This document shows, piece by piece, positions 1,227-21,330 of a stretch of 64,000 nucleotides of DNA (positions are counted from its first letter, which is position 1; the number at the start of each line of letters is the position of its first letter). The translations under genes and the position numbers were made by a program. The notes under the pieces were generated by a model that saw nothing but the letters and a program-made list of their open reading frames with translations, had not been told where the DNA came from and did no database searches. The stretch comes from Streptomyces sp. NBC_00224 (GTDB taxonomy: Bacteria; Actinomycetota; Actinomycetes; Streptomycetales; Streptomycetaceae), in contig NZ_CP108106.1 in assembly GCF_041435195.1 (NCBI RefSeq), positions 8,197,001 to 8,261,000 of the forward strand, read 5' to 3'.

Positions 1227-1461
1227 TCACCGACGGCTGTTGACCGTCCTGCGGAGTGCGCCTGTCGGGGGCACCGCCGCTGAGTGACGTTCGCAGACAG
1301 GAGAGTACGGACACACGAGTGGGGAACCGCTCACCAGGCCACGGCGCGCGTGCCGCGTCCGGAGGCTGGTCGCGCGGTTCCCCACGCCCTGTGCAGGCAC
1401 CCAGCACCCTGTGGAGCGCCTCGATGGCGCCAACGTGCGACGGATTGGGGAGGGGCGGACC

Positions 1462-4305
1462 GTGGACGGATCGGCGCCGGACAACAGGGACGAGGCGGAG
1501 TGGTTCGACCGCCCGGTACGTAACATCGCCCGCCCATGGCGGGAGGAGCTGGCCCGGCGGCTGGGCGCCGTGGACGCGCTGGAGAGCGCGGAGCGGGACG
1601 CGGTGCTGGACGCCGGGCACACCGCCCTGATCAGGTCCTTGCACGCGAAGCTGTCCCGTCTGTTCTTGATCGAACTGCACGCACTGCGCATGGCGGAAGG
1701 CGCTGGGCGGCCCGGCGCCGCTGCCGGGGCCGGGCGGGCCGGGCCCGACACCGCGACGTGGGCCGCGTTCATCGAACAGGCCGATGACGAGGGCTATCTC
1801 GACCGGCTGGCCGACCGGTACCCGACCCTCGGGCGGCGGATCGCGTCGGTGGCACGGCTGTCGGTGGCGGCCACGGCCGGTTTCGCCGCACGGCTCGCCT
1901 CGGACCGCGAACTGCTGCGGCCGCTGCTGGGAGCACCCGCGGGGGAGCTACGGGCCGTCGCGTTCGGGGCGGGCGACAGCCACCGCGGCGGTCTGACGGT
2001 CAGCAGGGTCGACTTCGACGGCGGCAGCGTCATGTACAAGCCCAGGCCGTCGCAGGCCGACGTGGCTCTGGGCGCGCTGCTGGAGGAACTGTTCGCGGAC
2101 TTCCCCGGTGCCCCGGCGCCCGACGAGCGCATCCGTGTGCCGCAGACGTTGGTGCGTGAGGGGTACGGCTGGTCCGAGTTCGTCCACCACCGCTACTGCG
2201 CGGGCGATGCCGAACTCGCCGCGTTCTACCGCAACGTCGGACACTGGCTGGCCGTCCTCCGCTTCACCGGCGGCACCGACATGCACGCCGAGAACATGAT
2301 CGCGGCGGGCCCGGTACCGGTGATCGTGGACGCGGAGACCCTCTTCGACGCCCCCGCGCCCTTCCCGGCAAGCGGCCGGGGCGACGCGGTGGACGTGGCG
2401 GCGGCGGCCATCCGCCGGACGGTGCTGCGCACCGGACTGCTGCCCGTGCGCGGCACCGGCTTCGCGCTCGGCGGGGTGGACATCTCCGGGGTCGGGGCAC
2501 TGCCCGGCCAGCAACCGCTGATCCCCAACCCCGTGATCGCGGACGGCGGCACCGCCGCGGCCCGCTTCGAGGTGGACCTGGTGGCCATGCCCACCGCCGG
2601 CAACCACCCCAGCCCCACCCCGGTGCTGAGCGCGTACTGGGACCGGATCCTGGCCGGGTTCCGTGAGATGACCGCGCAGCTGCGCCGACCGGGGACCGAT
2701 CCGTACCGGCTGCTGCGGCGCTTCGAGGGCGCCCAGGCGCGGCGGATCCTGCGGCCGACGCAGGCGTACGTGGACATCGGCCGGATGCTGTGGCATCCCG
2801 CGTCGCTGCACGACGAGGCGGCGGCCGTCGAGCGGGCCCGCGACATCCTGCGGCGCAACGCCGAGGTGCTGCCCGGAGCCCCGACCGACCGTGCGGCCAT
2901 CGACGGCGAGATAGCCGACCTGCTGGCCGGAGACGTGCCGATGTCCACCTTCACCGTGGACACGGCCGCCGTACGGGCCACCATCGAGGACTGGCGCACC
3001 ACCGACCTGCCGTTGGAGGAGTCGGTGATCCAGGACGCGCTGGTGGGCGCGTACCTCAACGAGCGTTCACTGCCCCAGCGGGTGCAGGCGGGCGCCCGCG
3101 ACCCGCATGCCCGTGACCGCGAGCGGCGGCGCCGCGACCTGGCCGTGCAGATGGTACGGCGCCTGTGCGACGGCGCGGTGCGCGGCGAGGACGGAACGGT
3201 CACCTGGATCAGCCCGGTCTTCACCCCGGCCGGGTGGTCCATCAGGGTGCTGCCCGCCGACCTCTACACCGGGCAGGGCGGTGTGGCGCTGACACTCGCG
3301 GAGTACGTGACCGAGGCGCGGGCTGGGCGGGTGGACGAAGTCCCCGGTGTCACCGAGGCGTTCGAGGGCGCGCTGCGGGTACTCATCGGCACCGAGGACA
3401 AGACGCCGACGCCGTCGGCCGGGGCGTTCAGCGGTGCGGCGTCGCAGGTATGGACGTGGTTGGCGCTGCACCGGGTGCTCGGTGAGGACTGGCTGGTGGA
3501 GCGGGCGGCCCAACGAGCCCTGCTGCTCGCGCAGGGGCGTCTGGTCGAGGACGACGTGGAGGTGGACCTCCTCAACGGCGCGGCCGGGGGAGTGGTTCCG
3601 CTGCTCGATCTGGCCGAGGCGACCGGACAGGACCGCTGGCTCGCCGCCGCCGCGCACATCGGCCGCCGGCTGTCCGGGCTGGCGATCGTCGACGCGAGCG
3701 GCGCACGCTGGACGACCCGGCTCAACCCCGAGGGCATCGGCGGCTTCGCCCACGGCGCCACCGGCATCGGCTGGGCGCTGACCCGGCTCGCCCTGAGCGA
3801 CGCGGGCTCCGCGGCCGAACGCCGCGACTGGACCCACCTCGCCGAGCGGGCCTTCGCCTACCAGGAGTCCCTCTACCAGCCCGAACAAGGCAACTGGCTG
3901 GACGTACGCATCGGCGCCGAGGAGGACTTCTTCACCAGTTGGTGCCACGGCAGCGCGGGGATCGGCATGGGCATGCTCGATCTCCACCGGCGTACGGGCG
4001 ATCCGGCCCACCTCGATATGGCCCAGCGCGCCGCGCGCGCGTGCGCCGCCGAGGGCTTCGGCTGGAGCCACACCCTGTGCCACGGCGACCTCGGCCTCTG
4101 GGAGTTCCTCACGTCCCTGGGCTTCGGCAACGCCGACGACCTCGACGGCGAGATCCTCACCGGCCTCGAACAGCGCGGTCCGGTGGGGGGTTTGGCCCGC
4201 GAAGCGTTCTCCCCGAGCCTCATGTCCGGCCTCGCGGGAGTCCTGCACACCCTTCTGCGTATGCACCCCGAGGCCACCCTGCCGAATCCCCTCCTGCTGG
4301 ACTGA
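1462..4305 (+). CDS. lanM: Class II lanthipeptide synthetase LanM
   Basis: A bifunctional synthetase of 947 residues that would dehydrate Ser/Thr of the upstream precursor and cyclise them with Cys. The N-terminal DUF4135 dehydratase half shows MYKPRPSQAD, GTDMHAENMI and VDAETLF, matching family catalytic motifs. The C-terminal LanC-like half shows the zinc ligands Cys828 (WCHGSAGIG) and Cys873-His874 (LCHGDLGLWE), with NisC-like spacing. I chose the GTG at 1462 because GGGGAGGGG lies about 7 bases upstream; an in-frame GTG at 1411 has no such site. Length fits the usual 900-1050. No LanT transporter/protease, immunity or regulator gene follows, since the next gene points the other way; export functions must lie elsewhere or be generic. 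Confidence 0.95.
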   Translation: MDGSAPDNRDEAEWFDRPVRNIARPWREELARRLGAVDALESAERDAVLDAGHTALIRSLHAKLSRLFLIELHALRMAEGAGRPGAAAGAGRAGPDTATWAAFIEQADDEGYLDRLADRYPTLGRRIASVARLSVAATAGFAARLASDRELLRPLLGAPAGELRAVAFGAGDSHRGGLTVSRVDFDGGSVMYKPRPSQADVALGALLEELFADFPGAPAPDERIRVPQTLVREGYGWSEFVHHRYCAGDAELAAFYRNVGHWLAVLRFTGGTDMHAENMIAAGPVPVIVDAETLFDAPAPFPASGRGDAVDVAAAAIRRTVLRTGLLPVRGTGFALGGVDISGVGALPGQQPLIPNPVIADGGTAAARFEVDLVAMPTAGNHPSPTPVLSAYWDRILAGFREMTAQLRRPGTDPYRLLRRFEGAQARRILRPTQAYVDIGRMLWHPASLHDEAAAVERARDILRRNAEVLPGAPTDRAAIDGEIADLLAGDVPMSTFTVDTAAVRATIEDWRTTDLPLEESVIQDALVGAYLNERSLPQRVQAGARDPHARDRERRRRDLAVQMVRRLCDGAVRGEDGTVTWISPVFTPAGWSIRVLPADLYTGQGGVALTLAEYVTEARAGRVDEVPGVTEAFEGALRVLIGTEDKTPTPSAGAFSGAASQVWTWLALHRVLGEDWLVERAAQRALLLAQGRLVEDDVEVDLLNGAAGGVVPLLDLAEATGQDRWLAAAAHIGRRLSGLAIVDASGARWTTRLNPEGIGGFAHGATGIGWALTRLALSDAGSAAERRDWTHLAERAFAYQESLYQPEQGNWLDVRIGAEEDFFTSWCHGSAGIGMGMLDLHRRTGDPAHLDMAQRAARACAAEGFGWSHTLCHGDLGLWEFLTSLGFGNADDLDGEILTGLEQRGPVGGLAREAFSPSLMSGLAGVLHTLLRMHPEATLPNPLLLD

Positions 4306-12083: not shown

Positions 12084-12422
12084 TTACGGCTGAGTGATCA
12101 CCCGGGGGTCCGCGTCGGACGGGTCCACCGGGTCCGTCGGTGTGGACGGTCGTTCGCTGATGCCCGGGGCGCGGGCGGGCGGCGCGGGAGCCGGGGCCAG
12201 CGGGCCGCCGGGCAGCACCAGCAGGCACACAGCCACCACGGCGGCAGCCGCACCAAGCGCAGTGAAAGCGACCCTGCGCACCCGGCGCACTCCCCAACTG
12301 CGCCCCTGCGGGGGTGCCTCGTGCTTCAGGTCGTGGTGGGTGACGAGCGACGCGCGGGCGGCAAGTGCGGCGCGCACCCGGTCCTCGGCCGCGGACCGGG
12401 GGTCTTCGGCAAGCGGCTTCAT
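12084..12422 (-). CDS. Small single-TM protein coupled to the SigE-family sigma factor
   Basis: A 112-residue protein with a charged cytoplasmic N-terminus (residues 1-50), one membrane helix (VAFTALGAAAAVVAVCLLVL, 51-70) and a short Pro-rich extracellular tail ending DPRVITQP. Its ATG overlaps the TGA of the sigma factor gene (ATGA), so the two are translationally coupled. That position and topology fit an anti-sigma factor or membrane accessory, though no ZAS zinc motif is present, so the role is inferred. The C-terminal PRVI-T-QP is echoed by PRVIQPG at the end of the next secreted protein (13104-13442). Confidence 0.75.
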   Translation of the reverse strand: MKPLAEDPRSAAEDRVRAALAARASLVTHHDLKHEAPPQGRSWGVRRVRRVAFTALGAAAAVVAVCLLVLPGGPLAPAPAPPARAPGISERPSTPTDPVDPSDADPRVITQP

Positions 12423-13033
12423 CGGTCCGCCTCCAGCTTCTTCTCCAGGACGTCCAGCGCACGGCTGGCGGTGGACTTCACCGTGCCCCGCGCCAGGCCG
12501 AGCGTGTGGGCGATCTGCGCCTCGGTCAGCTCCGACCAGTAGCGCAGTACCAGCACCTCCCGCTGACGCTGTGTCAACTGTGCCATCGCGTCGAGAACTT
12601 GGCGGTGTTCCTCGGCGAGCAGCAACCCCTCGTCGACGGGCGGCCCGTACCCCTGGTGGGGCGGGGTGTACGCGCGGGCGGTACGACGTCTGCGCAGCAC
12701 GGAGCGGGCCGCGTTGACCACGGCGGTGTGCAGATAGGACGCGGGGTCGTCGAGCCCGTCCAGCGAGGTGCCGTATCTGCGGCAGAGGGCGGCGAAGGCG
12801 TCCTGGACGACGTCCTCGGCGGTGTGCAGATCGTCCACCAGGAAGAGCGCCAGCCGCACCATGTCGAGCCGCCGTGCCCGGTACAGCTCGGTGAGCGTGG
12901 GCGGCGGATCGTAGTCGTACCGTGTGCCGACTGCCCGCAGACCGTGCCGGCGTACGGGCACGTCCTCGGTCCGGGACATACGGGCGAGCAGCCGGGGCCA
13001 CCAGGGCAGCGCTGCGGGTATGGCGTACTGCAT
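12419..13033 (-). CDS. SigE-family ECF RNA polymerase sigma factor
   Basis: A 204-residue sigma-70 family factor. Region 2 includes ELYRARRLDMVRLALFLVDD and AEDVVQDAFAALCRRY; region 4 includes LTQRQREVLVLRYWSELTEA with QIAHTLGLARGTVKSTASRAL as its HTH. Such SigE-family factors usually answer envelope signals. The ATG at 13033 is used, though an in-frame ATG at 12979 would still keep region 2. The stop codon overlaps the start of the membrane partner. The secreted protein and DUF11 operon beside it are plausible targets, but this is inference from position. Confidence 0.88.
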   Translation of the reverse strand: MQYAIPAALPWWPRLLARMSRTEDVPVRRHGLRAVGTRYDYDPPPTLTELYRARRLDMVRLALFLVDDLHTAEDVVQDAFAALCRRYGTSLDGLDDPASYLHTAVVNAARSVLRRRRTARAYTPPHQGYGPPVDEGLLLAEEHRQVLDAMAQLTQRQREVLVLRYWSELTEAQIAHTLGLARGTVKSTASRALDVLEKKLEADR

Positions 13034-13055
13034 GGGCCTCGATCCGTTACGGAGG

Positions 13056-13087
13056 AGCGGGCCGGCCTGCGAAGAGGCCGGCCCGCT
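13056..13087. terminator. Terminator hairpin after the small secreted protein
   Basis: AGCGGGCCGGCCT (13056-13068) pairs perfectly with AGGCCGGCCCGCT (13075-13087) around a six-base loop. It lies just past the stop of the leftward gene at 13104 and before the sigma factor start. Confidence 0.75.
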
Positions 13088-13103
13088 TCATGGTGCGCTG
13101 CTG

Positions 13104-13442
13104 CTACTTCCGGACTCCGCTGCCCGGCTGGATCACCCGGGGAGCGTTCTCGGCCGGGGCGGACCCGGCGCCGGGCTTGGCGGCGGGCTTGGCCGCGGCG
13201 GCCGACTTGCCCGTCTCAGTGACCTTCGGCGTACCGGCGGCCTTCGAGACGCCGGGCTGCGACGCCGCCTGCGGGGCGGTGTCCCCGGTCGTGGCGACCT
13301 TCGGCGCGGCGGGGGCCGGCGTGGCGCCCGAGTCGGCGACGGCCTGCGCGGCGAAGCCGCCGCCCAGCAGCAGCGCTACTCCGGTGACGGCGCCCAGGAC
13401 CCGGGGGCGGGGACGGTAGTTCCGCTTGGCGTGCGATGACAT
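13104..13442 (-). CDS. Small secreted Ala/Pro-rich protein
   Basis: A 112-residue exported protein: signal peptide over residues 1-36 (VLGAVTGVALLLGGGFAAQA), then a low-complexity Ala/Pro/Lys-rich, probably disordered, domain. No Cys and no known domain. The C-terminus ENAPRVIQPGSGVRK shares the PRVI(x)QP motif with the end of the membrane protein at 12084-12422, which suggests both tails are made or recognised together. It is transcribed toward the sigma factor but separated from it by a terminator. Function unknown. Confidence 0.7.
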   Translation of the reverse strand: MSSHAKRNYRPRPRVLGAVTGVALLLGGGFAAQAVADSGATPAPAAPKVATTGDTAPQAASQPGVSKAAGTPKVTETGKSAAAAKPAAKPGAGSAPAENAPRVIQPGSGVRK

Positions 13443-13793: not shown

Positions 13794-15161
13794 ATGAGAC
13801 GCTTCCCCGGACGTCGTGCAGGAGCTCAGCGTCGGCCGTGCCGGGTGGTGACCTTCCCGCTGGGCTGCGCCGTCGCCGTCAGCGCGGCCCTGCTCGGGCA
13901 GCCGTCCGCGACCGCGTCGGAGCGCCCGTCACCTTCTGCCACCCCGTCATCCCCTGGCATCCCGTCACCTTCTGCCACCCCGTCACCTTCCGCTCCGGCT
14001 TCGTCGGCGGCCCCACCGGCGACCACCACCTCGCCCTCGACGACGGCCTCGGCGTCAGCACCAACACCCACACCAACAGCTTCGGCATCCGCATCCGCCT
14101 CGCCACCCGTGCCCGCGCCGCCTTCGCCCACGGGCGTACACGGCGCCGGCGCCCAGGCCGATCTGGAGGTCCGGTCCTCCGCCGAGGGCCAGGACCAGGA
14201 CCAGGACGAGCCGGAGGCTCGGGCCGCGGCCGGATCCGAGCGCGGGGCGGACGGCGTGTTCGACTACGTCATCACCGCCGTCAACCACGGCCCCTCACAG
14301 GCCGTCTCCGTAACCGTCACGGACGAGCTGCCCGCCTCGCTCGTCTACGTCTCGTCGCGCGACGGCTGCACGGCGAGCGGCCGCACCGTCCGCTGCGGTC
14401 CGCTCCCCCGGCTCGCCGTCGGCGAGTCCCACTCCTGGGCGGTGACCGTGCGGCTGGCCGACGACTACGACGGCGACGGCCAGGACATCGTGAACTCCGC
14501 GTCCGTCTCTTCCCCGACCTCCGACCCGCACCCGGAGAACAACACGACCTCGGTGACGGGCCTGCCCGTGCCCCCGGACCGGGGGCGGGCGGACCTGTCC
14601 CTGGACAAGACGGCGGTACTGGCCAAGGGTCAGCGCTGGGTCAGGCCCGGCGAGACGTTCGCCTACCGGATCACGGTGGACAACCGGGGTCCCGGTGCCG
14701 CCCGCCAGGTGCGGGTGAGCGATCCGCTTCCGGGCGAGCTGAGCTTCGTCGAGTCGGCGGACGGATGCGCCCCGGACGGGGACGGCGCACGGACGGTCGT
14801 CTGCCCCGTCCTGGACCGGCTGGAGCCGGGCGCGTCGGTCTCGTACGAGATCACGGTGAAGGTCGCCAAGTCGCTGCCCCGGCACCTGCGGCAGATCGAC
14901 AACATCGCGTCCGTCACCTCCGCGACCAGGGACCCCGACGAGAGCAACAACCAGAACGCCGAGAACACCACCGGCCCCGACGGCGGCCCGCTCCACATCA
15001 AGCCGTGGCCGGATCCCGATCACTCGGACGGTGAGCTGCCCGACACCGGCAGCGACGTGCCGGACCGGCTGGGCTGGCTGGCCGGTTCGGCGGTCGCCGC
15101 CGGAGCCGTCCTGGTGGCAGCGGCACGCCGCCGCGTGACGTGCCGGGGGCGGAAGCGGTGA
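13794..15161 (+). CDS. Sortase-anchored DUF11 surface protein (LPDTG)
   Basis: A 455-residue cell-wall protein. An Arg-rich N-terminus and hydrophobic stretch (VVTFPLGCAVAVSAALLGQ) form the signal peptide. Residues about 45-118 are Ser/Pro/Thr/Ala-rich, encoded partly by direct repeats of CACCTTCTGCCACCCCGTC. Two DUF11 beta-sandwich repeats follow, starting near residues 121 and 265; the first carries an acidic insert (EGQDQDQDEPEAR). The C-terminus is a sorting signal: LPDTG (415-419), a membrane helix, then Arg-rich RRRVTCRGRKR. Streptomyces class E sortases prefer LAxTG, so LPDTG is notable. The ATG at 13794 is chosen over earlier codons lacking a signal-like start. The TGA overlaps the next gene's GTG. 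Confidence 0.85.
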   Translation: MRRFPGRRAGAQRRPCRVVTFPLGCAVAVSAALLGQPSATASERPSPSATPSSPGIPSPSATPSPSAPASSAAPPATTTSPSTTASASAPTPTPTASASASASPPVPAPPSPTGVHGAGAQADLEVRSSAEGQDQDQDEPEARAAAGSERGADGVFDYVITAVNHGPSQAVSVTVTDELPASLVYVSSRDGCTASGRTVRCGPLPRLAVGESHSWAVTVRLADDYDGDGQDIVNSASVSSPTSDPHPENNTTSVTGLPVPPDRGRADLSLDKTAVLAKGQRWVRPGETFAYRITVDNRGPGAARQVRVSDPLPGELSFVESADGCAPDGDGARTVVCPVLDRLEPGASVSYEITVKVAKSLPRHLRQIDNIASVTSATRDPDESNNQNAENTTGPDGGPLHIKPWPDPDHSDGELPDTGSDVPDRLGWLAGSAVAAGAVLVAAARRRVTCRGRKR

Positions 15162-17266
15162 CGGCCCGGCGGTGCGCCTTCGCACCCCGCCGCGCCCGGC
15201 GCACGGGTGCCGTCCTGCTGGCCCTGGCGGTCGTCCTGGGCCTTGGGGCCCTGCTCCAGCCCGCTTCGGCCGTCAACCACGCCCGGGCGCCCAGGGCCCT
15301 GAGCTTCCCCGTCCACGAGAGCTTCGACAACGGCAACGACCTGGGCACCGCCACGGGAAGCACCGCCTACGAGAGCGGCTGGCTGCGGCTGACGTCCGCA
15401 TCCAACAACCAGGCCGGATCCTGGCAGATGAAGGACTCGTTCCCCACCAGTCTCGGGATCGTCGCGGAATTCACCTATGCCACCTACGGCGGCAAGGGCT
15501 TCGACGGCAAACGCGGTGACGGGATGGCGTTCTTCCTCGCCGACGGCAGCGCCGCCGCCGGGACGGGCGCCGCCGGCGGGGCACTGGGCTACGCCTGTGC
15601 CGGCTCGGTCCTGCGCTGTACGTCCAGCGGTGTGCCCGGCGGCTTCCTGGGGATCGGCCTGGACGAGTTCGGCAACTTCTCGGCCAACTCCACCGGAGCC
15701 AGCGGCCCGGGCACCCAGGCCAACAAGATCGTGCTGCGCGGTGGGGGCAGCGGGACCACCGGTTACCGCTTCGGCACGTCCGCCGACGGTCCCGGATCCA
15801 CCGTGGAGACGGGCAGCCGGACCTCGTACCGCACCGTGCGGATCGCCGTGCAGCCCACCAACGGCAAGCTGCTGGTCTCGGTCTGGTCGGACTCCGGCCC
15901 GGGCACCGCGTCGACCAAGCTCATCACCGACTTCGACGTCTCCACCATCACCAACCAGCCGTCACTGCCGTCCACCCTGAGGGTGGGTTTCTCGGGCGGT
16001 ACGGGCGGCGCGACCAACAACCACGAGGTCGGCGACCTGACCATCAACGTGCCGGCCAACCTCACCGTCGCCAAGTCGGGCAGGCCCGCCACGGTCGCGG
16101 CGGGGGCGGGCCCGGTCACGTACACCGTCAAGGTCACCAACAGCGATGCCAACGACGTGACGGGAGCGACCGTCAAGGACCCGGTGCCCGGACTCACCCA
16201 GGTGACCTGGAGGTGCACGGCCAGCACCGGCAGCACCTGCGGCAAAGCCTCCGGCGCGGGCGACCTCGACACCACGGCGGACCTCCTGCGCAACGGCACC
16301 GTCACGTACACCATCACCGGTACCGCGCCCGCCCAGCCGACCACGCTGCGCAACACGGCGGTGGTGACCGCGCCGGGCAACCGCACCGACACCGACCCCA
16401 GTGACAACTCCGCCACGGCCGAGACCACCGTGACCGCACTCGCCGACGTGGCGGTCACCAAGGAAGGTGTGGGGGCGGGGCCGGTACGTCCCGGTGAGGA
16501 GTTCGACTACCGGATCACCGCGCGCGACAACGGGCCGTCCGACACACGCAATGTGAAGGCCACCGACACCCTGCCCGCCGGGCTGACCTTCGTCTCGTCC
16601 GCCGACGGCTGCACCGCCGCGGGCTTCTTCGTGACCTGTCCCACTGTCGCCGCGCTGGAGGCGGGCTCCGCCGTGTCGTGGACCGTCCGGGTCAAGCTCA
16701 GGGCCACCTACCAAGGCGACGGTAGCGACCTGGGCAACGTCGCGAGGATCACCCACGATGTCACGGACCCGGACACCGCCAACAACACGAGCGGCGCCGC
16801 GTTTCCGCCGGGCGGGGTCACCCCTCCGGCGGCCGACCTCGTGACGGTGAAGAAGACAACGACCACCGCCCGGGTCGCGCCGGGGGAGACCTACGCGTAC
16901 ACGGTGACGGTCACCAACCGCGGCCCGTCCGTGGCCCGTGCCGTCCGCGTCCAGGACCCCCTGCCGACCCCCTTGACGTTTCTCTCCTCCGCCGACGCCT
17001 GTGCGGTGACCGACCGCACGGTCACCTGTGGGCCTGTCGCCACACTCGCCCCCGGTGCCTCGGTGTCCTGGACCTTCAGGGTCCGCCTGGACGCCGCCTA
17101 CAGCGGCGACGGCACCGACGTGCACAACACCGCGACGGCCGGCGCCGACACGGCCGACCCCGACACCACCAACAACAGCGGCACCGCCACCGTGCCGGGC
17201 GGGTCACTCAAACCGCCGACCGCCGACCTGGAATTCGGCAAGCAGGCCGACGACACCCCCGCCTGA
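15158..17266 (+). CDS. Secreted L-type lectin / DUF11-repeat protein
   Basis: A 702-residue secreted protein. The GTG start at 15158 overlaps the TGA of the preceding gene (GTGA), so the two are coupled. Residues 1-38 are a signal peptide. Residues about 45-300 look like a bacterial L-type lectin domain (FDNGNDLGTATGST; GDGMAFFLADG; GIGLDEFGNFS), likely binding glycans. Three DUF11 repeats start near 301, 428 and 559. The chain then ends abruptly at 689-702 with TADLEFGKQADDTPA, which is only the first strand of a fourth repeat. No sortase or membrane anchor is present, so attachment must be through another protein. Confidence 0.85.
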   Translation: MTARRCAFAPRRARRTGAVLLALAVVLGLGALLQPASAVNHARAPRALSFPVHESFDNGNDLGTATGSTAYESGWLRLTSASNNQAGSWQMKDSFPTSLGIVAEFTYATYGGKGFDGKRGDGMAFFLADGSAAAGTGAAGGALGYACAGSVLRCTSSGVPGGFLGIGLDEFGNFSANSTGASGPGTQANKIVLRGGGSGTTGYRFGTSADGPGSTVETGSRTSYRTVRIAVQPTNGKLLVSVWSDSGPGTASTKLITDFDVSTITNQPSLPSTLRVGFSGGTGGATNNHEVGDLTINVPANLTVAKSGRPATVAAGAGPVTYTVKVTNSDANDVTGATVKDPVPGLTQVTWRCTASTGSTCGKASGAGDLDTTADLLRNGTVTYTITGTAPAQPTTLRNTAVVTAPGNRTDTDPSDNSATAETTVTALADVAVTKEGVGAGPVRPGEEFDYRITARDNGPSDTRNVKATDTLPAGLTFVSSADGCTAAGFFVTCPTVAALEAGSAVSWTVRVKLRATYQGDGSDLGNVARITHDVTDPDTANNTSGAAFPPGGVTPPAADLVTVKKTTTTARVAPGETYAYTVTVTNRGPSVARAVRVQDPLPTPLTFLSSADACAVTDRTVTCGPVATLAPGASVSWTFRVRLDAAYSGDGTDVHNTATAGADTADPDTTNNSGTATVPGGSLKPPTADLEFGKQADDTPA

Positions 17267-17354
17267 CGCGGCCCCGCCCGCCCGGGTGGCACACCCCCCC
17301 CAACGTCCGTACAGCGGTGTACGGCAACCGGAGCACGAACGGAATCGATGCGAG

Positions 17355-19406
17355 ATGAGAACGAGACGACATCGTCGGCGCCCCTGGGCGGGAGCGGCGC
17401 TCGCCGCACTGCTCGGCGCGCTGCCGCAGTGGTCCGGCCAGAGCCCGGCCGCCGCGGCCGACACTCCGCCCGGCGGCCTCATCACCTACACCCTCACGGC
17501 GAAGAACAACGGGCCGTCCGTGGCCCGCAACGCCACGGCGACCGACACACTGCCCGACGGCATCTCGTTCGTCTCCTCGGCCGACGGCTGCTCGGCCACC
17601 GGACAGACGGTCACCTGCGGCCCCGAAGGGCAGTTGGGTGTGGGACAGACCAAGAAGTGGACCTTCCTCGCCCGGCTGAGTCCCTCCTACGAGGGTGACG
17701 GATCGGATCTGGGCAACGCCGCAGTCGGCAAGTCGGACTCCACGGACCCGGATCCGGACAACAACAAGCCCAAGCCGGTGACACCCCCGGGCCCCTTCAC
17801 ACCCCAGTCCGACATCTCCGCGGTCAAGACGGCACTGGGCAGCGGACCGACGATTCCCGGTCAGGAGTACGAGTACGAGATCGACGCGTCCAACGCCGGA
17901 CCGTCGGACGCCCGCAACGTCACGGCCACCGACACGCTCCCGGACGGCGTCACCTTCGTGTCGTCGGGGGACCCCTGCACGGCTTCCGGCCAGAAGGTGA
18001 CCTGCGGTCCGCAGGCCAAGCTGGTCCCCGGGGCGACCACCAAGTGGACGTTCAAGGTGAAGCTCAGCGCCGCCTATCAGAGTGACGGCGCGGACCTGCA
18101 CAACACCGCCACCGCCAGCTCGGATTCCAGGGACCCCGACCCCACGAACAACACCAGCACCGCGATCCTGCCGCCCGGCGGGGTCACGGCACCCCAGGCC
18201 GACCTGTGGGCGACGAAGCGGCCCGCGACCACCACCCCCATCGCACCGGGCGAGACCTTCGAGTACGAGGTCACCGCCCACAACGACGGCCCCTCACGCG
18301 CGCTGAAGGCGAAGGCGACGGACACCCTGCCCGCGGGGCTGACCTTCGTCGACTCGGCCGACGGCTGCACCGCCACCGGCCGGACCGTCAGCTGCGGCCC
18401 GCAGGCGATCCTGGAGCCGGGCGCGTCCAGGACCTGGAAGTTCCGCGTCAGGCTCGACTCCGAGTACACCGGCGACGGCAGCGACATCCGCAACACCGCC
18501 ACCGTCTCCTCCGACACCAAGGACCCCGTCCCGGCCAACAACACCAGCTCCCCGGCCGGTCTGCCCGGCAGCACGGTCAACCGGCCCACGGCCGACCTGG
18601 CGGTGACCAAGACCGCGGTGGGGGACACCCCGCCGGCCCCCGGCACCACCTTCGACTACAAGATCACGGTGACGAACAACGGCCCGTCGGCCGACGCCTA
18701 CAACGTGAAGCTCACCGACGACCTCCCCGAAGGCCTGTCCTACGTGGCGTCCTCCCCGGCCGGCTGCACGGTCTCCGGCCGCGCGGTCTCGTGCAAGCGC
18801 ACGACCCCGCTCAAGGTGGGAGAGATCATCGAGTACCTGCTCACCGTGAAGGTCGACCCCGCCTACCACGGGGACGGCAGCGATCTGAAGAACACCGCCA
18901 GGGTCACCGCCGACAACATCGACCCGAGCAGCGAGAACGACAGCGACACCGCCACGCCTCCGGGCGGCACGGTCGCCGCGCCCTCCGCCGACCTGGCGAT
19001 CGTCAAGAAGCCGGTCACGAACACGCCCGTCGCCCCTGGCGAGAGCTTCGAGTACGCGGTGACCGTCACCAACAAGGGCCCCTCCCAGGCGGAACAGGTC
19101 CAGGTCACCGACACCCTGCCCACTGCCCTGAGCTTCGTCTCCTCCGACGACACCTGCACCTCGGGCCGTGCCGTCACCTGCGGCCCGCAGGCCGCACTGG
19201 CGCCCGGTGCGTCGGTGACCTGGGTGTTCAAGGTGAAGCTCGCCGCCACGTACACGGGTGACGGTTCCGACATCCACAACACGGCCACGGTGTCGTCGGC
19301 GACCAAGGACCCGGTCACCGAAAACAACGCGAGCACCACGGGCCCGCCCGGCGGCAAGGTCAACAAGCCCACGGCCGACCTGGAGGTGTCGAAGCAGACA
19401 CCCTGA
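17355..19406 (+). CDS. Secreted DUF11-repeat protein with permuted ends
   Basis: A 683-residue secreted protein consisting only of DUF11 repeats of about 130 residues. A signal peptide (residues 1-36, RRPWAGAALAALLGALP) is followed directly by DTPPGGLITYTLTAKNNGPS: the first repeat lacks the usual ADLxVxK first strand. Four complete repeats begin near residues 152, 282, 413 and 545 (SDISAVK, ADLWATK, ADLAVTK, ADLAIVK). The protein then ends at 674-683 with TADLEVSKQTP, an isolated first strand. So N-terminus and C-terminus are complementary parts of one repeat. The ATG at 17355 gives the signal peptide; its ribosome site is weak. It lies 88 bases after the previous gene, probably in the same operon. 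Confidence 0.82.
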   Translation: MRTRRHRRRPWAGAALAALLGALPQWSGQSPAAAADTPPGGLITYTLTAKNNGPSVARNATATDTLPDGISFVSSADGCSATGQTVTCGPEGQLGVGQTKKWTFLARLSPSYEGDGSDLGNAAVGKSDSTDPDPDNNKPKPVTPPGPFTPQSDISAVKTALGSGPTIPGQEYEYEIDASNAGPSDARNVTATDTLPDGVTFVSSGDPCTASGQKVTCGPQAKLVPGATTKWTFKVKLSAAYQSDGADLHNTATASSDSRDPDPTNNTSTAILPPGGVTAPQADLWATKRPATTTPIAPGETFEYEVTAHNDGPSRALKAKATDTLPAGLTFVDSADGCTATGRTVSCGPQAILEPGASRTWKFRVRLDSEYTGDGSDIRNTATVSSDTKDPVPANNTSSPAGLPGSTVNRPTADLAVTKTAVGDTPPAPGTTFDYKITVTNNGPSADAYNVKLTDDLPEGLSYVASSPAGCTVSGRAVSCKRTTPLKVGEIIEYLLTVKVDPAYHGDGSDLKNTARVTADNIDPSSENDSDTATPPGGTVAAPSADLAIVKKPVTNTPVAPGESFEYAVTVTNKGPSQAEQVQVTDTLPTALSFVSSDDTCTSGRAVTCGPQAALAPGASVTWVFKVKLAATYTGDGSDIHNTATVSSATKDPVTENNASTTGPPGGKVNKPTADLEVSKQTP

Positions 19407-19495: not shown

Positions 19496-21058
19496 TCAGA
19501 AGCGCAGGGCCCAGGAGTCGACATAGCCGGTGTTCCCGGCGCGGGCGTCGAACACCCGCAGTCGCCACACCCCGTTGGCGGTCTCCGATGAGGCGTCGAT
19601 CGCGTAGACCACGGTGAAGTCCGTGACGGCCCAGCCCTCCCATTCGTCCTTGATGGGATACGCGGTGCCGTCGGGGGCGATCACGTCGATCCGCAGGTCG
19701 CCGGAGTCCGGATGCTTGATGTCGATCTCGACGTCGAGGTCAGCCGGGGCACGGCCGGACACTCCGCTGACGGTCACGGGGGAGTTGACGGTCGCCAGGT
19801 CGGCCACCGGGTAGTCCGTGGTGTTGGCGAAGCGGCTGCCGGGCGGACGCTGTGGTGAACTGCCCACGTACAGCAGCCGGTTGACCGAACCGGCGCCCGG
19901 GTCGATGACGGATCCGGTCGTGGCCGAGGCGGTGAGGGCCGCACCGACCTGGGCCGGGGTGGCCGTGCGGTGCTCGGCGAGATGGAGCGCGGCCGCACCG
20001 GTGACGTGCGGCGTGGCCATCGAGGTGCCGGACATGGTCGTGTACCAGTCCTCGGACCAGTACGCGGCGGAGGTGATGGAGTCTCCCGGAGCGAACAGGT
20101 CCACCAGCGGCCCGTAGTTGGAGTAGGAGGCGCGGTGGTCGTGCTCGCCGACCGCCCCGACCGTCAGCGCGGTCTGGACGCGGGCGGGGGAGCGGCCCGC
20201 CGCGTCGATGTCCTGGTTGCCCGCGGCGACGGCGTAGGTGATGCCGGAGGCGATGGAGTTGCGGACGGCGGCATCCAGGACGTCGTCCGGGTCCCCGCCC
20301 AGGCTCATGTTCGCCACGGCCGGCTTGACCGCGTTGCGGGTCACCCAGTCGATGCCCGCCACCACCTGCTCGGTGGTGCCCTCGCCCGTGTAGTCGAGCA
20401 CCCGCACCGCGACGATCTTCGCCTTCTTCGCCACCCCGTAGGTGGTGCCCGCGACCGTACCGGCGACGTGTGTGCCGTGGCCGTGGTCGTCCTGCGCGGT
20501 CATGTCGTCGTCGATGGCGTCGTAGCCGTAGGTGGCGCGGCCGCCGAAGTCCTCATGGGCGATGTTCACACCCGTGTCGATGACATACGCGGTCACCCCC
20601 TGCCCGGCCGAATCCGGGTACGTGTAGCCCCCGGCCATCGGCAGACGGCGCTGGTCGATGCGGGCCAGGCCCCAGGAAGGGGGATCCGGTTGGGTGGCAT
20701 CGAGCCGCAGCGTCCGGTTCTGCGCCACCTCGGCGACCGCCGGATCGGCGGCGAGGCGCCGGGCCTGACGCTCCGACAGGTGGGCCGAGTAGCCGTTGAG
20801 CGCGGTGTCGTAGGTGCGGCGGATCCTGCCTCCGTACCGCTCGACGACGGCCCGGCCTCCCGGCGTCCGCGAGGCGGCGCGGGAGGGGTTGAGGACGACG
20901 AGGTAGCTGTCGGCGACGGCTCCCGGGGCGTCGGCGTACTGAACGACGCCTTCCGGCGGCCCGGCAGCGGATGCCTCCGTGGTCCCGACGAGTACGAGCG
21001 CTGCGGCGAGCGCGATCACGGCGCCGCAGCGCTGTCTTAAGCGCGGTGTGATGGCCAT
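19496..21058 (-). CDS. Secreted S8 subtilisin-like protease with P-domain
   Basis: A 520-residue secreted serine protease. A signal peptide (1-32) is followed by an I9-type propeptide (about 50-118, DSYLVVLNPSRA... HLSERQARRLAADPAV). The catalytic domain has Asp161 (YVIDTGVN), His194 (HGHGTHVAG), oxyanion Asn281 (AAGN) and Ser346 (MSGTSMATPH). Residues about 405-520 form a proprotein-convertase P-domain (DLDVEIDIKHPDSGDL; GVWRLRVFDARAGNTG). It would mature autocatalytically and degrade or process extracellular proteins. The ATG at 21058 begins the signal peptide; a GTG at 21091 is possible. It is convergent with the DUF11 operon, so any role on those proteins is speculative. Confidence 0.93.
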   Translation of the reverse strand: MAITPRLRQRCGAVIALAAALVLVGTTEASAAGPPEGVVQYADAPGAVADSYLVVLNPSRAASRTPGGRAVVERYGGRIRRTYDTALNGYSAHLSERQARRLAADPAVAEVAQNRTLRLDATQPDPPSWGLARIDQRRLPMAGGYTYPDSAGQGVTAYVIDTGVNIAHEDFGGRATYGYDAIDDDMTAQDDHGHGTHVAGTVAGTTYGVAKKAKIVAVRVLDYTGEGTTEQVVAGIDWVTRNAVKPAVANMSLGGDPDDVLDAAVRNSIASGITYAVAAGNQDIDAAGRSPARVQTALTVGAVGEHDHRASYSNYGPLVDLFAPGDSITSAAYWSEDWYTTMSGTSMATPHVTGAAALHLAEHRTATPAQVGAALTASATTGSVIDPGAGSVNRLLYVGSSPQRPPGSRFANTTDYPVADLATVNSPVTVSGVSGRAPADLDVEIDIKHPDSGDLRIDVIAPDGTAYPIKDEWEGWAVTDFTVVYAIDASSETANGVWRLRVFDARAGNTGYVDSWALRF

Positions 21059-21330
21059 CCGGCCAGGGTGGCCGGTGCCGGTCACCCGCACAAGGGCGTG
21101 CCACAGCTGCTGGGGACGCTGGTGCGGATGAGGGGTGGGGCCGGCAAAGTGTGCCCGGTTGCGGCCTCCGTCTCAAGGTATCCGGCTGGAACGTGCCACC
21201 TGCCGGGTGCGAACCGGGCGTCGGGGGAGCGCCGTTGGAGGCCGTATCGGTTCGCGGAGGCGTTCGGGGCCCGGTTGGTCCGCGGCGTTACCGGCCGCCG
21301 CCGCGACCTCGGTGACTGGTCTTGACTGGT

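Follow-up and report, generated by a model that had tools for sequence, protein, structure and literature searches.

The locus and its genes

Streptomyces sp. NBC_00224 carries, in a 64-kb stretch of its chromosome (contig NZ_CP108106.1, positions 8,197,001 to 8,261,000; the whole stretch is called the window, and positions are counted from its first nucleotide), three successive plus-strand genes, here named A, B and C, whose products are built from DUF11 repeats and whose ends suggest that one such repeat is divided between partner proteins. The host genome comprises 9.18 Mb and lies near Streptomyces melanogenes, the named homologues of B and C that rank highest among the matches listed being 91–94% identical. 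Gene A (13794..15161, plus strand) encodes a secreted protein in which a signal peptide (by eye) precedes a long stretch rich in Pro, Ser and Thr, two DUF11 repeats (Pfam, 2.2e-40, 138 bits; cut-off 24.6) and a sorting signal. The LPDTG motif (15036..15050, plus strand) is followed in the sequence by a hydrophobic segment and RRR; the Gram_pos_anchor match, at 14.9 bits, falls under its cut-off of 20, and the AlphaFold2 model of A has a C-terminal helix at model residues 312-338. Gene B (15158..17266, plus strand), whose start overlaps the end of A at GTGA, encodes a signal peptide (by eye), an L-type-lectin-like domain (15290..16057, plus strand, the stretch used as query), three complete DUF11 repeats (176.4 bits against a cut-off of 24.6) and a short C-terminal tail. 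Because its Lectin_L-type_dom match (6.8e-8, 33.1 bits) lies below the Pfam cut-off of 78.3, sugar binding by B is treated as putative. Gene C (17355..19406, plus strand) codes for five DUF11 repeats (2.9e-100, 330.9 bits in five stretches; cut-off 24.6) between a signal peptide (by eye) and a similar tail. Neither B nor C has an anchor or sorting signal, LPDTG being confined to A. The proposed roles are wall anchor and acceptor only for A, tip and donor only for B, and shaft, both donor and acceptor, for C.

A DUF11 repeat apparently divided between proteins

The DUF11 family has been renamed CLIPPER, for domains with a Lys-Asp-Asn isopeptide triad whose Lys lies on the first strand (PMC12617251, cited here, like PMC5487036 and PMC9715654, from excerpts). 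In the window the triad is complete in eight repeats, A2, B1-B3 and C2-C5, with 35-38 residues from Lys to Asp and 56-60 from Asp to Asn; the spacings tabulated for the structure 9IFR are 33 and 58 (PMC12617251, excerpted). The fold agrees with that of 9IFR as the CLIPPER/DUF11 reference, and the Foldseek and VIA-align lists are headed by integrin leg domains, which are read as the common Ig-like fold and nothing more. The first repeats of C and A, C1 and A1, are without the Lys and retain Asp and Asn, and both orphan tails retain the Lys.

B ends in TADLEFGKQADDTPA (17219..17263, plus strand; Lys695 at 17240-17242) and C in TADLEVSKQTP (19371..19403, plus strand; Lys680 at 19392-19394), in each case an isolated first strand whose DUF11 repeat does not follow. 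The acceptor repeat C1 (17460..17800, plus strand; Asp64 at 17544-17546, Asn121 at 17715-17717) is without strand A: the DUF11 profile match starts at position 13 in C1 and at position 1 in C2-C5. In the AlphaFold2 model of C, computed as a single chain from residue 28 on with 38 sequences (mean pLDDT 89.8), strand A is present in C2-C5 (E127-134, E257-263, E388-394 and E520-526), C1 opens at strand B (E15-23), and the tail forms no strand, pLDDT dropping from 79 to 53. The window thus holds an incomplete Ig-like acceptor together with free, complementary donor strands. A sequence-only reading of this DNA had claimed that B and C end in an isolated first strand, and the sequence, the model of the C tail and the homologous tails described below all bear this out.

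The same reading had the altered first repeat in C only, and this has to be widened, since A1 is altered as well. Its strand A, ADLEVRS (14157..14177, plus strand; E9-18 in the AlphaFold2 model), has the Lys replaced and is tied to the domain by a long tether (model residues 22-39, pLDDT below 50); the catalytic-type Asp177 (14322..14324, plus strand) and the isopeptide-type Asn234 (14493..14495, plus strand) are kept. A repeat that has lost the Lys and yet keeps Asp and Asn is a candidate acceptor. Thus A, which had been proposed as wall anchor and given no joint to the rest, would remain the base of the assembly and gain a joint in A1. The view of A1 as an ordinary complete repeat was set aside after the triad had been tabulated, and the presence of its own Lys-less strand keeps that view alive.

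Conservation of the triad and of the tails

The triad was tabulated in the window and 269 homologues, drawn from three overlapping sources (120 listed of 947, 66, and 120 listed of 301). A first list of C-type proteins had demanded a Lys-bearing tail, so that its 48/48 tails were circular; the set used here (n=48 including the window) was therefore selected on similarity only, requiring a minimum of 55% identity across at least 90% of C. Six proteins of the first list are absent from it (P0041, P0048, P0068, P0098, P0237 and P0243), the shorter C-like proteins with tails P0057 and P0064 fall outside it, and P0040, with an apparently frame-shifted end, is outside both lists. No C1 among the 48 has a Lys aligned at the place of strand A, all 48 retain the Asp and Asn of this repeat, and the internal repeats have the full triad without exception (193/193). 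The tail Lys is present in 47 of the 48; in 42 the protein stops exactly three residues past it and in five it extends further. At least ten residues rich in charged and small side chains follow the C tail in the S. roseicoloratus group (P0042, P0043, P0044, P0046 and P0049). The exception, P0033 (Streptomyces sp. NPDC051561, 937 aa), starts with a C1-type repeat without Lys, continues with five complete ones and has an LPETG anchor in place of the tail, and reads as shaft and anchor fused in one chain. Alignment of 38 C proteins shows no variation at the Asp and Asn of C1 or at the Lys of the tail.

Within the internal C repeats, the Lys is found nine residues ahead of PG in 181 of the 184 parsed. 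C1 could be parsed in 30 of the 48 proteins of the first list and has no Lys at that distance in any; seven have a Lys directly before APG, and P0039 has two further up. Among the other 18, read by eye, a Lys was seen only in P0021, directly before APG.

For A-type proteins (n=57 including the window) the set was chosen by the anchor motif, and seven candidates were removed by judgement: P0033, counted with C, and P0060, P0073, P0081, P0111, P0172 and P0263, from other or unnamed lineages. In the latter six the first matched repeat bears Lys, except in P0060, whose start is cut off. In all 57, A1 is without an aligned Lys and retains Asp and Asn. The ADL strand was found in 40 of them, its Lys place taken by S, G, A, T or W and never by K, and was not found in the remaining 17. 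Many orthologous C1 likewise retain a Lys-less stretch at the strand-A place in the table, so the statement that C1 lacks this strand, correct for the window by profile and model, holds exactly only in the window and in its nearest relatives. By analogy with the self-plugged TasA monomer (PMC9715654, excerpted), the Lys-less strands of A1 and of many C1 may be plugs. Lectin proteins (n=98 including the window) end in a tail in 85 cases, with the Lys at most 12 residues from the end; of the 13 without it, five have their own terminal membrane segment (P0102, P0245, P0248, P0249 and P0251) and eight look truncated or different.

Tails were also extracted from DNA loci, by patterns in which the Lys and the hydrophobic classes were preset. 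The B tail was recovered from 18/18 sources and the C tail from 16/18, or 16 and 14 distinct sources, since L059 duplicates L047 and L060 duplicates L048; the C tail was not retrieved from L049, which has no C on its contig, or from L061, whose tail is longer. Position 3 is invariably Asp, position 4 is L, I or V, position 6 is V, F or L, position 8 is K, and the outward position 7 is S, T, G, D, A or V. This pattern fits the docking of a strand with its Lys inward, for which independent support comes from the alignment of 38 C proteins. Within a strain, residue 5 of the B tail agreed by eye only in part with that of the C tail, and this was not used.

Altered first repeats in 48/48 and Lys-bearing tails in 47/48 homologues picked by similarity show that the arrangement is not a local accident; chance or a local frameshift is ruled out, as the same ends recur across Streptomyces and Kitasatospora. 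Orthologues without the tail, or with a complete first repeat, were what could have spoken against the sequence-only reading. The tails favour it, being present in 47/48; the first repeats speak partly against it, a degenerate Lys-less strand persisting in many orthologous C1 and in A1.

These counts bear on two alternatives. In the first, the tails dock into C1 and A1 as a non-covalent donor-strand fibre with no isopeptide bond. The anatomy would be equally expected, and bond-free fibres of this kind, such as TasA and chaperone-usher pili, are well known (PMC9715654). Against it stand the Lys of 47/48 C tails, for which a purely structural strand would have no need, and the Asp and Asn kept in every C1 and A1, and we regard this alternative as unlikely. 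In the second, the tails and first repeats are relics of gene fission: a long repeat protein broke, the strands at the breaks are meaningless, and A1 and C1 have just lost their bonds. The tail of B and the start of C are indeed alike at DTP, and in loci read from outside Streptomycetaceae the lectin lies within single proteins whose triads are mostly complete. A break in the same loop, resembling a frameshift, occurs in the cyanobacterial loci L093 and L120. But the tail Lys is retained in C proteins with as little as 55% identity and in Kitasatospora, and C has a signal peptide of its own. Decay, moreover, would be expected to look different: in the middle repeat of Kitasatospora A proteins, the third, the Lys is, where alignment was complete, not aligned, V or I stands for Asp and G for Asn (P0069, P0076, L153:5241-7508 and L154:6309-8480; P0056, P0063 and P0071 were aligned only in part), whereas A1 of these proteins keeps both Asp and Asn. 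Fission without function is thus judged very improbable.

Co-occurrence, gene order and neighbourhood

Lectin-B orthologues share 63-100% identity and the next best match 44%; the cut at 63% or more was chosen after this gap had been seen. Orthologues of B and C co-occur in the same genomes in 10/295 Streptomyces and in 5/345 genomes of the family, of which two belong to another genus (the two draws overlap). Any lectin match occurs in 30 of the 295, those beyond the orthologues being distant lectins, and a C match in 8 of the 345, which in G297, G338 and G433 amounts only to fragments of giant repeat proteins. The loci read have their genes in the order A, B, C, except that S. roseicoloratus (L061) and L155 have A, C, B; L048, on the same contig as L060, begins within B, and in L049 A and B are divergent with C on a separate contig. 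A system of two components in G014, where no C stands beside A and B, was ruled out, since its C lies on another contig.

Seven other neighbour genes, compared over 17 loci, recur only in the two nearest relatives (L054 and L055), with one exception, a dienelactone-hydrolase-like gene found at 39-41% in L045 and L062. An ECF-type sigma factor gene and an upstream small protein gene (12419-13442, minus strand) recur, among the loci tested, beside the operon of these two relatives only. A subtilase with a proprotein-convertase P-domain (19496-21091, minus strand) lies directly downstream of the operon and is shared, among the loci tested, with the S. melanogenes locus L055 only. A long open reading frame at 1411-4305 (plus strand) resembles, by eye, a LanM-type lanthipeptide enzyme. 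Among the more distant lectin loci, the contig ends of L114 and L119 fall in a first strand of this kind, and in the cyanobacterial L120 (506-2851, 2773-7074) and L093 (7206-9419, 9386-9688) a lectin-DUF11 protein stops near strand A.

Of the ten sortase (PF04203) matches in the genome, not one falls inside the window, and the closest is about 382 kb distant. It could be proposed that a sortase links the LPDT end of A to the tail Lys of B or C, which would act as nucleophile in the manner of a pilin motif. A does have LPDTG, sortases are encoded in the genome and the model of C leaves the tail unpaired. On the other hand, B and C are without a sorting signal, so that B-C and C-C links would be unaccounted for, as would C1 and A1 with their Asp and Asn but no Lys, and the closest sortase gene is far from the operon; this is the least probable of the alternatives. 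No match to an usher (PF00577) was found in the genome, an Escherichia coli control being positive.

Proposed mode of assembly

Starting from the architecture, its conservation, the triads, the co-occurrence and the lack of an anchor in B and C, all of them direct observations, we infer the docking, the covalent bond, the order of subunits, the length of a fibre and the binding of sugar. B and C have a signal peptide and no anchor, and they are most simply read as coupled through the split domain. The last strand of B or C would supply the missing first strand to C1 of the next C, or to A1 of the anchor, and docking would place the tail Lys beside the retained Asp and Asn of the acceptor, where a Lys-Asn isopeptide bond would form without an enzyme. 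B, a donor with no acceptor, would cap the fibre with its lectin-like domain; C, being both, would repeat as the shaft; and A, an acceptor with a sorting signal, would terminate the fibre at the cell wall. Where the acceptor has a Lys-less strand of its own, as in A1 and many C1, this plug would be displaced and then locked out by the Lys-bearing donor. The head-to-tail polymer with a lectin tip and an LPDTG anchor, suggested by the sequence-only reading, remains the best reading, revised also in the nature of the link: as the donor strand bears the isopeptide Lys, this is probably covalent, like SnoopTag/SnoopCatcher, and goes beyond donor-strand exchange. We consider it probable that a CLIPPER domain is split in this way between tip B, shaft C and anchor A, joined by donor strand and Lys-Asn bond. 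The fuller statement, that in Streptomyces and Kitasatospora a natural split isopeptide domain welds a lectin-tipped fibre of three parts to the wall without a pilus sortase, plugs being displaced, is held with somewhat less assurance, though we lean towards it.

As donor and acceptor both occur in C, the tail might serve another partner, or C might close on itself or dimerize, with no fibre formed. The two donors and two acceptors of the window nevertheless pair off without remainder, B having a donor and no acceptor and A an acceptor and no donor; we hold this alternative to be highly improbable.

Several points weigh against the split-domain fibre. The fibre, the complex and the bond are proposals, and the structural models are of single chains; no docking of the tail in cis was seen in that of C, which says little on docking in trans. 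A1 is modelled closed with its own Lys-less strand and many C1 are alike, so the grooves may not be open; closed A1 may be just a CLIPPER domain without its bond. In two of the 48 C1 (P0034 and P0035) a Lys lies four residues ahead of the PG motif and might serve in cis. Asp and Asn might persist for other reasons. Among the repeats of the remaining proteins, 21 have another residue at the Lys column, seven of which keep Asp and Asn (one of them an A1), and in 37 more the match begins past that column, with 17 keeping both, which gives a rough background. In L093 and L120 an overlapping frame continues past a stop in the same loop, apparently through a frameshift. Finally, the sequences share ancestry, so that the counts are not independent events.

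Comparison with known systems

The individual devices are known. In CLIPPER 9IFR, of the same family (PF01345), the Lys on the first strand, the Asp and the Asn are present and the Lys-Asn bond has been solved, but it lies within one chain, whereas in the window the domain is divided over two (PMC12617251). The main text of that paper does not mention Streptomyces, SpyTag, a split or a donor strand. In SnoopTag/SnoopCatcher the Ig-like domain D4 of RrgA was cut after its first strand, leaving the Lys in the tag and the Asn in the catcher (PMC5487036, excerpted). The cut is that of the window, but it is engineered, while here it is natural, belongs to a three-gene operon and falls in the CLIPPER family. 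The archaeal thread Saci_0406 likewise joins head to tail by donor strands with a proposed intermolecular isopeptide bond, and its putative cap has a donor and no acceptor; it differs in having an N-terminal donor, a bond from the alpha-amino group to an Asn two subunits away and no DUF11 (PMC9715654, excerpted). TasA of Bacillus subtilis is a Gram-positive donor-strand filament with a self-plugged monomer whose plug is displaced, and the excerpts of PMC9715654 do not report an isopeptide triad for it. Sporesilk is a natural case of an autocatalytic intermolecular isopeptide bond, and a fibre by its title, but it has an alpha-helical hairpin fold (as cited in excerpts of PMC12617251). Sortase-assembled pili (SpaCBA, RrgABC) share the scheme of tip, shaft and base and the Ig-like repeats with isopeptide bonds; in them a sortase joins the subunits via sorting signals, which B and C do not have. 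Chaperone-usher pili require an usher gene, for which the genome gave no match. TasA, for its part, is not known to have tip and base proteins of the window kind.

Significance

An earlier description of a natural split CLIPPER domain was not found in the open-access literature, most subscription journals being outside this scope, nor was the combination of donor strand and isopeptide domain found described in this anatomy. The ligation of split isopeptide domains has so far been known as an engineering trick. If the proposed mechanism is true, the operon would be a conserved natural case with tip, shaft and anchor roles, that is, a sortase-free way of building covalent fibres in Gram-positive bacteria. 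It would also explain how secreted proteins without an anchor are retained at the surface, and CLIPPER domains would provide a new family of genetically encoded tags.

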